A DNA stretch of 64,000 bases from Ashinkailepas kermadecensis (Eukaryota; Arthropoda; Thecostraca; Neolepadidae). The notes under the pieces were generated by a model. The model saw only the letters and a list, made by a program, of their open reading frames with translations. It was not told where the DNA came from and did no database searches. Below are positions 3,563 through 58,167 of the stretch, piece after piece. The stretch covers positions 447,501 to 511,500 of the forward strand of contig JAOTOM010004868.1 in assembly GCA_034440615.1 (NCBI GenBank). The letters run 5' to 3'. Within the stretch, counting starts at the first letter, position 1. Every line of letters begins with the position of its first letter. The position numbers and the translations under genes are program-made.

Positions 3563-3622
3563 GTTAGTTGGTTAGTTGTTTGGGTTTAAAGGGCGCATCG
3601 ACTGATATGGTCATACAGCGCC
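3563..3622 (-). mobile_element. core-only mini-retroposon M1 (60 bp)
   Basis: In minus orientation this holds only the hairpin core (GGCGC...TGAC...GTCGATGCGCC) followed by a TTTAAACCCAA-type tail, with no tRNA head. It is flanked by 16-bp direct repeats, TTTCTCCTTGGTTCCC (3547-3562) and TTTCTCTTTGGTTCCC (3623-3638), with one mismatch. Direct repeats of this length suit target-primed retroposition. Confidence 0.8.
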
Positions 3623-3639
3623 TTTCTCTTTGGTTCCCA

Positions 3640-3755
3640 CTCAGCTGCTGGACCACACAGCGCCGCCAACCTCTCACGCCGATTGGCAGCGGGGGGGAAC
3701 ACGGTAATCCCGCCGGCTGTGCGATTCGAACAGACGACCTTGCGAGACCAAGAGT
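3640..3755 (-). mobile_element. SINE fragment, head 1 type, degenerate
   Basis: Minus-strand SINE relic lying directly beside M1. Box B (TTCGAATCGCACAGCC) and the core words CCAATCGGCGTGAGAGG and TTGGCGGCGC can be read. Box A and the acceptor part of the head are missing or eroded. Confidence 0.7.
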
Positions 3756-4245
3756 CCAACGATCCAACGATCAAGAGTCCGACGAAAAGTCTGGTCACAA
3801 TCACTCCAAATCAGCACGGATGTAACTTTCAAATGCGACGTCGCAGATTATTAACGCAAGCTCTTCGAAAGTTCCACCTAGATGGGCGATGACGTCACCC
3901 CATCGTCAGCGACGGAAGAGCTGGCTGCCCAGCACCCAGTGCCCTGAAATTCCACAGCTCAAGTGCAAACCAGCAGCCAGTATTGCTTCAACTCCTGAGC
4001 AACCGCCGCACTTCAGCAAACCGGTCTGACGACTACCAGCTGCAGCCCAGGGCTATGGGACTGGGCTATGGGCTGTGGGCTATGTGATTCACCATGTTCG
4101 ATTTCCGGCAAATGCTACCACATTTTCAAAAACAGTGTGTTTGATGATTCAAACGCCGCTTCATGCCAGCCAAAATGTCAGCTGTTTCAACCTTGCTGCG
4201 ACTTTTCCACGTGCTGGCATTGACAGCCGTCATACTATGAACAAT
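3756..4245. other. intergenic sequence, no gene seen
   Basis: Unique sequence with no recognisable coding or repeat content, apart from short runs such as GGGCTATGGG near 4050-4080. Confidence 0.4.
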
Positions 4246-4519
4246 CAGGGGCGGATCCAGGAATTGTCATTAGACACTTTATCTATGGAGGGCACCTCTA
4301 GCTGAAAAACTCGAAGAGGGGTGTGGGGTGAATTCTAGCACTGTAAGGGGGCCTTTTTTCAGAGGGGCGCCTCCAGCTGAACAATTCGAGGGGTCCACTG
4401 AAGCCTCCGGGTTGGTTGGTTGGTTATTGGGTTTTACGACACGTCGACCGTTGAGTCATGTAGCGTCGCCAATCCCTTACGCCGATTGGCCGCGGGAGAA
4501 GAGTAGCGACAGGTGAGAC

Positions 4520-5064
4520 CAGTAATAAATTATTCATGAAATAGGGTGGAATATACCACTTTCTGAACACTCAATCGACATCCTTCTCCAAGCTATATGA
4601 CCATTGCAGTCGATGCACCCTTTAAACCCAAATAACTAACTAACATCCTTCTCCAAGAAGTATCGGCATCCTGCTCCTTGATATGAAGTATTCATGTCTC
4701 CTTTCTAACAGTATATCGTTTATGAATAGCATGTGCATGCTCTCGATAAGGAATGGCGATACACGACTGTTTTGCAATGCAATTTCAGGTAAAGGGGTGG
4801 CCTTTAATGTGATATGGCATACAATACCAGTTTATAGCATAGTTATTATTCTCCCTATCCCGAATATAGCTCTTCATAAACTATGGATCTCATAAAAAAA
4901 AATGATACAGGTCCAGTCATAAGTACCTACACCATTGACTTAAATTTTAGTCTGAAAGACATCAAAAGCATTCTGCATTACACTAATTCAATGGCAAATT
5001 TTGACATCCTGCTATGCTCGTTTCGACATCTTACACCTAACGAAAAACCATTATTTTAACCCTG
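4520..5064. mobile_element. 545-bp hAT-like MITE (family B) nested in the SINE
   Basis: It is bounded by an exact 8-bp target duplication, GGTGAGAC at 4512-4519 and 5065-5072. Removing the insert plus one copy restores the SINE box-B region. The ends are weakly inverted: CAGTAATAAATTAT on the left, CAGGGTTAAAATAAT read inward from the right. An 8-bp duplication with CA...TG termini is typical of hAT elements. It carries no transposase, so it would be mobilised in trans. Confidence 0.85.
4593..4642 (+). mobile_element. core-only mini-retroposon M2 (50 bp) nested in the MITE
   Basis: Fifty bases running CTATATGACC...GCAGTCGATGCACCC and ending in a TTTAAACCCAAATAACTAACTA tail (given here as TTTAAACCC then AAATAACTAACTA). 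Exact 15-bp direct repeats ACATCCTTCTCCAAG flank it at 4578-4592 and 4643-4657. This is the fourth and youngest layer of the nest. Confidence 0.9.
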
Positions 5065-5355
5065 GGTGAGACTCGACCCCACAATCTTTTGATTGTGAGA
5101 CGGGCAACTTACCCAGAGACTACTCGTCCCCTTAAGCCTCCCGGAGTGACGCATTTTCCATGGGGCACATCCCCCAGTGCTGCCTGTGTCCACCCCGTAA
5201 GAATTCAGCACAACGCGAGGGGCAGAACCATGCCCCGGGATACCTTACAAACTGACCTCGGTAAACTCCTTACGCCGAACGGGGGAAACCTGGGCTGCAA
5301 ACTTAGCAACTTAGCCAGCAATGCGACAGTTCCTCTCCAACAGTCTCCTATCTCA

Positions 5356-55902: not shown

Positions 55903-55980
55903 TGGTGTGAGAGATCAGCGACGCCATGCAACCCAAAGCAGTGGACTCGTCAAGCCAATAACCACCACCGCAAACAATTC
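55903..55980 (+). mobile_element. SINE 3' core remnant fused to the minisatellite
   Basis: Reads TTGGTGTGAGAGATCAGCGA, CGCCATGCAACCC, GTGGACTCGTCAAGCCAATAACC. The core and tail are recognisable. Its 5' half has been replaced by the 35-bp array. Confidence 0.85.
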
Positions 55981-56574
55981 ATCCAGCGTTGCCGGGGATC
56001 TGTCCTGACAGTCTGCTGGAGGTGCCGATTCAAGACAGTTTCTCGTATTAGTGTCTGGAAGGATGGCTGATTCAAATGTGTCATCAGGGAGTTTTTGGTG
56101 TGTGGGTGATGGAGGTGCTGATTCAGGAGCATCATCAGTATTTTTGTAGAGGTGGTGAAGGTGCTGATTCAGTGGCATCACCAGAAAATTGTGCCGAGGC
56201 GGGGGTGCGGGAGTGGTGAACCCAGGAATTTCCCAATGATCCAGGGGCATATTCAGGTCTTTTACGGATAGAAAGGGCCGACCAAGGGTGCGATGACGGC
56301 GATTTGTCTCGAGGAAGTGGTGACAATGCCGATTCAGGGTCGTTTCCAGGATTGTGTGGCTCGGAGGGTGAGATGCACGTTCATGGCTTCACTGGGGCTC
56401 TCTCGAGAAGGTGACGAAGGGTCTTACACACTATGCTAAATTAATGCAAGGTACCAAATTGGACACTACTTAGTCTGGTGTGCTCCCAATAAATAGATCC
56501 ATTTGTGGCGGGACTCATGGGACACTTAAACACTGAAATCAATGCAAAGTCGATGATTGCTCAGAGAAAGAAAG
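55981..56574. other. unique sequence, loose GGTGCTGATTCA repeats
   Basis: GAGGTGCTGATTCAG-like words recur at 56020, 56112, 56160 and 56320. This is perhaps a very degenerate tandem repeat. No gene. Confidence 0.4.
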
Positions 56575-56780
56575 AGGGAGAGAGAGGGAGAGATATAGAT
56601 ATATATATATATATATACATACATACATATATACATACATACATACATACATACATACATACATACATACATACATATATACATACATACATACATACAT
56701 ACATACATATATATATATATATATATATATATATATATATATATATATATATATATATATATATATATATATATGTGTGT
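56575..56780. repeat. compound microsatellite (GAGAG, ATAC, AT)
   Basis: GGGAGAGAGAGGGAGAGA, then ATACATACATAC blocks interleaved with ATATAT to about 56775. Confidence 0.97.
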
Positions 56781-57989
56781 ATATTGCATATCTGACGCCG
56801 CCTCTGTGCTGATGACACGGCAGTGTGGCCGCTGCCTGGGACCCTGAGAGTCCAACACGTGTCCTTTACGTGCAGCACATCGTGCGGGAGCGCAGACTAC
56901 ATGATGCAATGCGGACCCCCAGTCCAGGAGAACACCACAGCTCTGCTGCCACGATACCACAACGCACAGTGTTCAAAATAGACCGGCACAGGGCTGCTTT
57001 AGACATTTCAGATACCACAGCGGCTGATTTAGGTGCCAACTCGCTCAGTTTGACATCACCGTTTTCACGGCTACAACAGGTATAAGCCTCGCAATACCAA
57101 CCACTGCACCTCCGCCGGCACACTCGGCCAACGGTCGTTTTTTTCTTCACAATCTGCCAACGTTCGAACGTCGGATGACGGATGGAAAGTCAGACGTCAC
57201 TTTTACCAAAATTTCAGCCATTTTAACAAGTACACTGCGGACAGTAACCAGAAAACATTGGTCCGAACGAAAGGAAGAAAGCACAACGACAAAGTAGGTA
57301 AAGACAGTGATATGCCTCGGATGCTTATCCCGGGAAAAACGTTAGTTGTATGGCTTAGAGATCGATCATTTTGACCGCTTTCTAGCTTCTTATCAAATGG
57401 ATGCAAAATGATCCAAGTAGTCAGCACGCCTCAGAACACCAAAATTCACCTCCACGTTACTGATCAAGCACACAAAGTATAACCCTGTCATCTGTTCCCA
57501 CTCCAGGTCCCGCCTCCACTTTGGACGATTTGTAACTTTACGGACAAGTATGTACCATCAGCTTGTTTGCTGACCTGACGAACCATAGTCTGCTACGTCA
57601 ATAACACTTCTTTCCTCTGTACCCCCAATCACGACAAAGTCAACAGCAATGAGCGGGTGAAAGGGCTTGCTAAGCAACCTATGCATTTCAACACCTACAC
57701 AAACACGATTCTCGTCAGACGATGTTCCGCCGTCCACGCCGAAGCGCTGCTTCGTATCGACAAGAAGCGTCCGAGTTCCTCAAACACCGATGTTGACAGT
57801 GTTTGGTTTTAGTCACGGCCTCGCGGCTTCCGCACCGCTCATAATTCGGTGTCTGCCTCGGCTGATTAGCGTATCGCAGGTGAGCGGGTGGTGACGTCAG
57901 CGTTTCTTTGAGACGTTTCTACGCCTCTGCGGAGCGATGGTGTAACTCCGTAATCCGCGACACCCGTCGTGACTGCCAATATTTGTTTC
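56781..57989. other. unique sequence; weak exon-like frame at 56825-57085
   Basis: A plus-strand frame ([20 protein letters not shown] to FSRLQQ) runs from an AG-ending site (cacggcag) to CAACAG|GTATAAG, a possible donor. It has no similarity I recognise, and the antisense frame is also open. I do not call a gene. The rest is featureless. Confidence 0.3.
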
Positions 57990-58000
57990 TTGGGGGTGGT

Positions 58001-58167
58001 TGGTTTGTTATTTGATTTACGGCGCGTCGACTACCCTGCGGACATTGGCGTTGCTAATCTCTCAAGTCGGTTGGTTGCAGACGAAGGGCGGTGACGGGTG
58101 GGACTCGAACTCACAACTTGTCAGTTGGGAGATGAACATCCTACCCCTGCGATTACTCGCACCCTTA
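58001..58167 (-). mobile_element. SINE with a diverged head (head 2-related)
   Basis: The minus strand reads GTGCGAGTAATCGCAGGGGT (box A region), box B GTGAGTTCGAGTCCCACCC, a diverged core (CTTGAGAGATTAGCAACGCC), the GTCGACGCGCCGTAAATC arm and an AATAACAAACC tail. The flanks TTGGGGGTGGT (57990-58000) and TTGGGGGCGGT (58168-58178) differ at one base. Confidence 0.85.

Follow-up and report, generated by a model that had tools for sequence, protein, structure and literature searches.

This locus raises the question of why short interspersed elements (SINEs) with different tRNA-like heads should end in one and the same 3' core. The window, which is the whole stretch analysed here, covers 64 kb of the 908-Mb genome of Ashinkailepas kermadecensis (4,689 contigs; positions 447,501 to 511,500 of contig JAOTOM010004868.1), and all copies analysed come from this one genome. 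It contains three SINE lineages, distinct in tRNA head and in tail, that have a 3' module in common, which we name HP2 and which is a hairpin shared with the 3' ends of long interspersed elements (LINEs). Our answer, which we consider very probable, is that HP2 serves I-like LINEs with an RNase H as the recognition hairpin at their 3' end, that the three SINE heads acquired it and are mobilised in trans, and that RNA made up of the hairpin and its tail is inserted as well.

Seeds placed at the coordinates of an earlier reading of the window (hereafter the original prediction) gave 23 clusters, of which 14 contained SINE sequence and nine were headless hairpin copies. A covariance model, R1, was built on 17 window hairpin copies, as that prediction had proposed. 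With filters off, R1 recovered 19 copies in the window at E-values from 9e-12 to 9e-4, consisting of the 17 training copies and two additional ones, while the next-best match had an E-value of 0.33. In 200 kb outside the model, composed of twenty 10-kb stretches picked blind to repeat content (the random sample), ten copies were identified at E ≤ 0.05, which corresponds to about one per 20 kb. The exact LINE-type hairpin sequence is present in 227 copies in the genome, LINE copies included, and the exact head-2 SINE-type sequence in 5,185 copies, with zero matches to the reversed control in both cases. HP2 is thus a real hairpin. At the gathering level, Rfam gave a tRNA match only, and sequence patterns of HP2 elements retrieved no cross-species copies from viral and prokaryote contigs.

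Read from the 5' end, HP2 consists of a six-pair outer stem, four unpaired bases ending in A, an inner stem, a loop, two to three unpaired bases, the returning arm of the outer stem and (Y)TAAA. RNAalifold recovered this two-part hairpin, with ten of the 11 pairs, from the alignment of 17 copies alone, in agreement with the fold that had been predicted, and the mean folding-energy z-score of 72 copies was -1.66. The inner pairs GAC/GTC that had been proposed are present, but the stem is truly one of four pairs, UGAC/GUCG, extended in some copies; the U-G at its base is nearly invariant (15/16), and the fifth inner pair is C-A in nine of 14 representatives. All quoted stems (CGACGC/GCGTCG, CGACGC/GTGTCG, GGGCGC/GCGCCC, GTGC/GCAC, GACTG/CAGTC and AACCC/GGGTT) were located where the prediction had placed them when read on the correct strand, which is the minus strand for the elements at 2811, 3563, 7834, 8928, 9290, 10191, 17678, 22581 and 23147 and the plus strand for those at 16897, 22047, 34145, 35853 and 49950. 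In the element at 22581 the GACTG/CAGTC stem is present, but the outer stem is mismatched (C-A) at one pair, and the minimum-energy fold of the single sequence is a different one.

Among the SINEs, R1 identified HP2 in members of all three lineages. Head-2 SINEs carry it on the plus strand at 17008-17044 (SINE 16895-17070, surrounded by the target-site duplication (TSD) AAATAC(T/G)TGAGAAAAAA), at 22157-22193 (SINE 22046-22219, where the flanking AAACCTAAACTA was recognized by eye and the TSD script chose another repeat) and at 50060-50096 (SINE 49950-50115), and on the minus strand at 4432-4468 in a 5'-truncated copy (SINE 4409-4542). The head-1 and head-3 copies are all on the minus strand. 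Head-1 SINEs have HP2 at 2823-2860 (SINE 2817-2990, with a weak TSD of score 9), at 7854-7891 (SINE 7849-8011, with a TSD) and, with a 3-base deletion, at 7252-7286 in a truncated copy that was included in the TSD search (SINE 7239-7367). Head-3 SINEs have it at 8938-8976 (SINE 8929-9081, TSD TGTCACCGTGACA) and at 10200-10238 (SINE 10192-10345, for which a search for a TSD found none), and sequence comparison identified a further head-3 SINE without the 3' half of the hairpin at 13087-13207. An old, diverged SINE at 57993-58169 on the minus strand contains a decayed hairpin (R1 E = 3.3). ARAGORN predicted tRNA-like heads at 9001-9078 and 49950-50025, the latter also matched by the Rfam tRNA model, and the tRNA-likeness of head 1 and the remaining copies was assigned by eye. 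The single tail repeat that had been predicted for all elements holds for the head-2 SINEs and one family of mini-elements and LINEs, which end in CCAATAACC, but not for head-1 SINEs (GAACCCAAGG-like), head-3 SINEs (GCCACAA) or the other LINE-type copies (CAATTCATCATC and similar).

Directly 5' of HP2, the SINE cores of the three lineages contain a second stem, HP1, with a loop that includes GTGAGA, as in the head-2 SINE at 16987-17007 (plus strand), where it adjoins HP2. The HP1 stem is CCAATC/GATTGG in heads 1 and 2 and CCTGCC/GGCAGG in head 3, which is largely different yet still pairs. RNAalifold recovered both HP1 and HP2 from 17 aligned SINE cores, and both-side changes were seen in three of the six HP1 pairs, mainly from the one contrast between head 3 and the rest. 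When 47 SINE-type copies were folded one by one, the minimum-energy structure of the upstream region mostly had pairings other than HP1.

The original prediction had also held that the pairs of HP2 change together while the fold is kept. Across the 17 copies (16 distinct), 90.3% of the cells pair, as compared to 81.8% in shuffled alignments (0/500 as high) and to 27-47% when the registers are slid, and changes on both sides occur in seven of the 11 pairs, a number equalled by 10 of 500 shuffles. For 72 copies (60 distinct) the pairing was 91.7%, in an alignment made to the model, which favours structure. With each of 14 sequence types represented by one author-chosen copy, 87.7% of the cells pair versus 80.3% after shuffling (0/5000), and the inner stem of the 11 LINE-type representatives gave p = 0.0002. 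Between the SINE lineages and the LINE families, outer pairs 1 and 3 differ on both sides with pairing kept, and further double changes are located in the inner pairs. In a tree-preserving simulation the three best structural pairs had p-values of 0.006, 0.011 and 0.015.

Some results of the same tests weigh against a conserved RNA structure. Among the 60 distinct copies, double changes were found in six of 11 pairs and 109 of 500 shuffles reached the same number; the outer stem alone of the 11 LINE-type representatives gave p = 0.32; no pair was significant after correction in the tree-aware test (best E = 0.066 for 11 pairs and 3.6 for 602 pairs); and two non-structural column pairs outscored every structural pair in that test. 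The claim that pairs change together therefore stands at the family level, above shuffles, but not in the tree-aware test of each pair. If HP2 were no functional RNA and SINEs and LINEs merely shared a DNA 3' end by descent with the pairing inherited, the non-significant tree-aware test and the small number of independent double changes would be expected. Such an explanation is highly improbable, given that the family-level pairing exceeds that of the shuffles and of the slid registers, that outer pairs altered on both sides between SINEs and LINEs still pair, and that the inner stem has further double changes. The covariation, which rests on a handful of family-level events, is supportive rather than decisive, and HP2 is likely to be an RNA structure.

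We also searched for HP2 at the 3' ends of LINEs in this genome. On the plus strand of the window, the C-terminal coding end of a 5'-truncated LINE with the pattern LCRLRIGHT..CPRC..H..C is located at 38443-38756 (tblastn to the fetched locus L053, E = 2.8e-7, in short pieces), and the 3' end of the same LINE is formed by HP2 at 38998-39035 (R1 and genome search), separated from the coding remnant by tandem repeats and followed by CTCCAATAACC. With positions 38440-39048 as the query, the hairpin was kept at the 3' end in 35 of 40 scored places (1,805 candidates), the five without a reported hairpin piece being C4569, C1595, C3931, C2990 and C2351. Thus, the search of LINE 3' ends that had been suggested did reveal HP2 in most scored copies of one LINE. 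A second family is represented by its 3' end at 34084-34215 on the plus strand, with HP2 at 34156-34193 (R1 and genome search), and by a copy at 9298-9425 on the minus strand, with HP2 at 9312-9349 (82% identity over about 125 bases). All 40 scored places for the query 34084-34215 (1,144 candidates) span positions 2-118 or more of the 132-base query, in which the hairpin occupies 73-110. A longer copy at 17690-17822 on the minus strand (HP2 at 17697-17735, TSD CATCCCGCGCAAC, 5' end at -89) probably belongs to a further LINE family, and R1 identified an additional HP2 copy at 35863-35900 on the plus strand, for which the TSD search left the 5' end unplaced.

I-clade LINEs encode an RNase H, and their C-terminus carries a Cys/His motif. 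The stretches upstream of HP2 at four author-chosen places among the 40 of the second family are 85-92% identical in pairwise comparisons over 524-795 bases, encode an RNase H-like domain (PF00075, E = 4.9e-4, which is below the Pfam gathering score) and, also upstream of HP2, the terminus LCRLRIGHT...CPRC...H...C. The LINE fragment has 91 protein homologues, most of which are labelled PF00075, and an alignment of 15 of them revealed the conserved motifs W.P.H...GN..AD and CxxC...H...C. Homologues with names are mostly from arthropods (Schistocerca, Cherax, Ornithodoros, Photinus, Parasteatoda and Callosobruchus). In viral contigs, 32 stretches matched the RNase H peptide pattern, none of which was a relative by tblastn. 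The HP2-bearing LINEs hence look I-like, an assignment made solely from their RNase H-like and Cys/His C-terminal end. In this genome, a SINE and a LINE share a 3' end, and protein-coding sequence of the LINE precedes the shared end.

A CR1-like LINE was considered as the partner and rejected. The hairpin at L028:2769-2805 lies in a CR1-like 3' UTR, which it interrupts, as judged from other CR1-like copies, and no clear TSD was found for this insertion. In the window, an L2/CR1-like C-terminal open reading frame (ORF) end at 53430-54543 on the minus strand (ORF 53659-54543) is followed by a tail of (TTGA)n and lacks the hairpin, and the hairpin was absent from the 3' ends of the CR1-/L2-like LINE copies examined. 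As a separate observation, the ORF at 35138-36115 on the minus strand includes an endonuclease-like stretch, ..LLLGRRQLDILHVYETWL.., that by eye resembles the endonuclease domain of LINEs and had no Pfam match.

The headless copies, taken by the original prediction as one class of mini-elements, do exist but are a mixture. In the window, those at 9298, 34150, 38993 and probably 17691 are LINE 3' ends, and those at 3572, 4592, 22587, 23148 and 32618 are insertions of little more than the hairpin. The first of the latter has its hairpin at 3586-3623 on the minus strand and a tail extending to about 3563, is nested in an older SINE core (3572-3776), and is flanked by an 18-base TSD with one mismatch, its 5' end being at +3 relative to the foot of the stem. 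The others are found at 4590-4626 (plus strand, without most of the outer 5' arm, 15-base TSD ACATCCTTCTCCAAG), 22602-22639 (minus strand, 13-base TSD TCCACAAAAACAC, 5' end at -5), 23163-23200 (minus strand, 14-base TSD ACCTAACCCATTTA, 5' end at -2) and 32620-32658 (plus strand, 15-base TSD ACTGATTCTTTGTGT, 5' end at +4).

We searched for TSDs around 71 copies, 49 of the SINE type (including L045:6912 and L020), most of them fetched by a SINE query, and 22 of the LINE type, none of them targeted (ten from the window, five from the random sample and seven bystanders in SINE loci), with positions counted from the stem foot. In full SINEs, the inner end of the TSD is located at about -108 to -112 for head 2 and about -120 to -130 for head 1, and a TSD with a score of at least 10 and its inner end at -135 to -100 was found for 27 of the 49 SINE-type copies. 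Of the LINE-type copies, 13 of 22 are hairpin-only, with a TSD score of at least 10 and the inner end at -6 to +5, and four are longer, two by TSD (9312 and 17697) and two by shared LINE sequence (34156 and 38998). The best duplication fell at -6 to +5 in none of the 49 SINE-type copies. When only the window and the random sample were considered, eight of 15 LINE-type copies were hairpin-only versus none of 14 SINE-type copies (Fisher p = 0.0022).

For replication, the mini-element at 23140-23206 was used as a query (40 scored of 1,423 candidates), and the 14 listed matches after the window's own were analysed with 30-35 flanking bases. Ten of these have a TSD with a score of at least 9 ending at -4 to +1, and nine of the ten duplications exceed 9, the maximum among swapped flanks (n = 182). 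Of the remainder, L055 has a likely but imperfect TSD, and in L056, L065 and L066 the element extends upstream with sequence also found at 38993. The fetched copies start uniformly with (A)ATGGGCGC. Bare hairpins with a tail, about 50-60 bp in size, have thus been inserted at many places, mostly with the same start.

Since 5' truncation is a general habit of LINEs, these insertions might be ordinary truncated copies produced by early fall-off of the reverse transcriptase, with no special boundary, and longer truncated copies do exist (17691 at -89, 9298 at -76, and 38993 at several hundred bases or more). We consider this unlikely, as the 5' ends are clustered: among the non-targeted LINE-type copies whose 5' end could be resolved, 13 of 17 end within the narrow ranges given above, as do ten of the 14 targeted copies. 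Moreover, among the first 100 listed of the 227 exact hairpins, only 22 belong to the 86 places with the LINE bases GATGWTAT upstream. This leaves up to 78 as hairpin-only, although a part of these, such as C1754, will represent LINE copies whose junction has mutated. It is still less probable that the mini-elements represent a minimal SINE that spreads by itself through transcription of its own copies. One family with 227 exact hairpins (LINE copies included) and a uniform start in the fetched copies would fit, but the hairpin-only copies fall into six or more sequence types whose tails differ, some 45 bp would be too small for a Pol III promoter, and three of the 14 targeted copies extend into sequence common to the LINE at 38993.

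The reading that we prefer takes HP2 as a recognition hairpin. A template-recognition element predicts what is seen here: one module common to two or more LINE families and to three SINE heads with three different tails, together with the TSDs and the bare insertions. The original prediction had proposed a recognition site for a LINE reverse transcriptase, which is supported by the findings that LINE 3' ends carry HP2, that three SINE heads share it and that insertions of hairpin and tail have TSDs; the binding by the protein itself is inferred. By this mechanism, the LINE reverse transcriptase would mobilise tRNA-derived SINEs in trans by target-primed reverse transcription. The LINE protein would grip HP2, the tail beyond it would anneal or slip at the nick, and copying would begin there. 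An RNA of little beyond hairpin and tail could also be used, resulting in retrocopies of about 50-60 bp that start at the stem foot, in which case hairpin and tail may be sufficient.

What would set the sharp 5' boundary observed in the examined copies is a matter for more cautious proposals. One is that the template is a full-length LINE RNA and that the enzyme stops past the hairpin, where the hairpin itself or bound protein would make it pause, whereupon the short cDNA integrates. This would account for the boundary and the TSDs without a special RNA, and in several copies ending at +2 to +5 the duplication overlaps stem bases, as microhomology at the 5' junction would. We nevertheless regard it as doubtful, because a roadblock at the hairpin should halt copying before or inside the hairpin rather than after it, and because SINEs with the same fold have no hairpin-only copies among the 14 in the window and the random sample. 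The expectation that a blocked reverse transcriptase would stop before copying the hairpin makes an already shortened template a better fit. Our tentative guess, to which we give less than even odds, is that the template is a remnant of LINE mRNA in which 5'-to-3' decay was halted at the protein-bound hairpin. In the window and the random sample, bare insertions are present for the LINE types and absent among the SINEs, which are expected to be Pol III transcripts, and this would fit the decay of a capped LINE mRNA, on the basis of few copies. On that same guess, hairpin and tail would be a sufficient natural substrate, the mRNA trimmed to the protein-bound hairpin would leave a remnant of about 50-60 nt to be copied, and probably thousands of bare hairpins, among the smallest retroposons, would record the decay.

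Further points count against the recognition-hairpin reading as a whole. The I-like assignment uses the C-terminal end only, and its RNase H match is below the gathering score. A clear duplication at the expected place is missing in 22 of the 49 SINE-type copies, and five of the 22 LINE-type copies (35863, L031, L050, L024:1021 and L028:2769) gave no resolved 5' end. The null distribution for TSDs is wide, since 5.4% of 259 swapped flanks score at least 10, with a maximum of 17; its width is due to the repetitive tails, and the case therefore rests on position as much as on score. Finally, all copies are from a single genome.

Several other features were noted in the window and the fetched loci. 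The ORF at 43107-44945 on the minus strand codes for 612 amino acids, gave no Pfam match and has 82 homologues, the only one with a species name being from Branchiostoma floridae (53%); it is perhaps a transposon-borne gene. A Pfam search with six window ORFs gave no match. The window contains large tandem arrays at 59164-61960 (92-bp unit), 45894-47209 (23 bp), 55375-55909 (35 bp) and 762-2762 (36 bp), the last of which is open in two frames for about 890 codons. At 6391-7071, an A run, an AT repeat of about 440 bp and an AG dinucleotide repeat of 157 bp lie back to back. A repeat beginning with CACGCGCCCTGGAGGGCCTCTGAGAATTACGCGC is present at L041:5672-5720, L031, L019 and L036 with 92-98% identity.

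To our knowledge, neither the Drosophila I element nor other I-clade LINEs have a hairpin in common with a SINE. As in the CORE, V, Deu, Ceph, Inv, Nin and Meta domains, one central module is here found beneath several tRNA heads, and as in UnaL2, ZfL2-1, ZfL2-2 and their SINE partners, a short 3' stem-loop with a tail is common to LINE and SINE. In the L2 clade, the ORF2 protein binds to the 3' stem-loop, and stem or loop mutants fail (PMC4176376). The system studied here differs from UnaL2 and ZfL2 in that the partner looks I-like with an RNase H, that two stems surround an asymmetric internal loop, and that it is known from sequence alone. In plant L1-clade LINE/SINE pairs, compensatory stem changes in a shared 3' hairpin have been read as evidence of structure (PMC3747384), with a clade and a hairpin that are different from those here. 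The same review names CR1 and RTE as particularly predominant in known SINE/LINE pairs and gives TAA repeats as the 3' end of the Drosophila I element (PMC3747384), which the simple-repeat 3' ends in our data resemble. Neither the core nor hairpin-only insertions were found in the portions of the open-access literature that were accessible, including PMC11203168 and PMC11121367, which is weak evidence of novelty, and a text search of the literature with six core strings gave matches solely in three papers on bacteria.

SINE/LINE pairs that share a 3' hairpin are thus already known, and what is unusual here is that the partner looks I-like and that hairpin-only insertions are so precise. Such pairing has been documented mainly in the CR1/L2 and RTE clades and in a few L1 elements, and this range would be widened by an I-like LINE that mobilises SINEs of three lineages through one hairpin. 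The hairpin-only insertions amount to a natural deletion experiment, which suggests that hairpin and tail are enough for the choice of template, and their sharp 5' end raises the question of what sets the start of the template.

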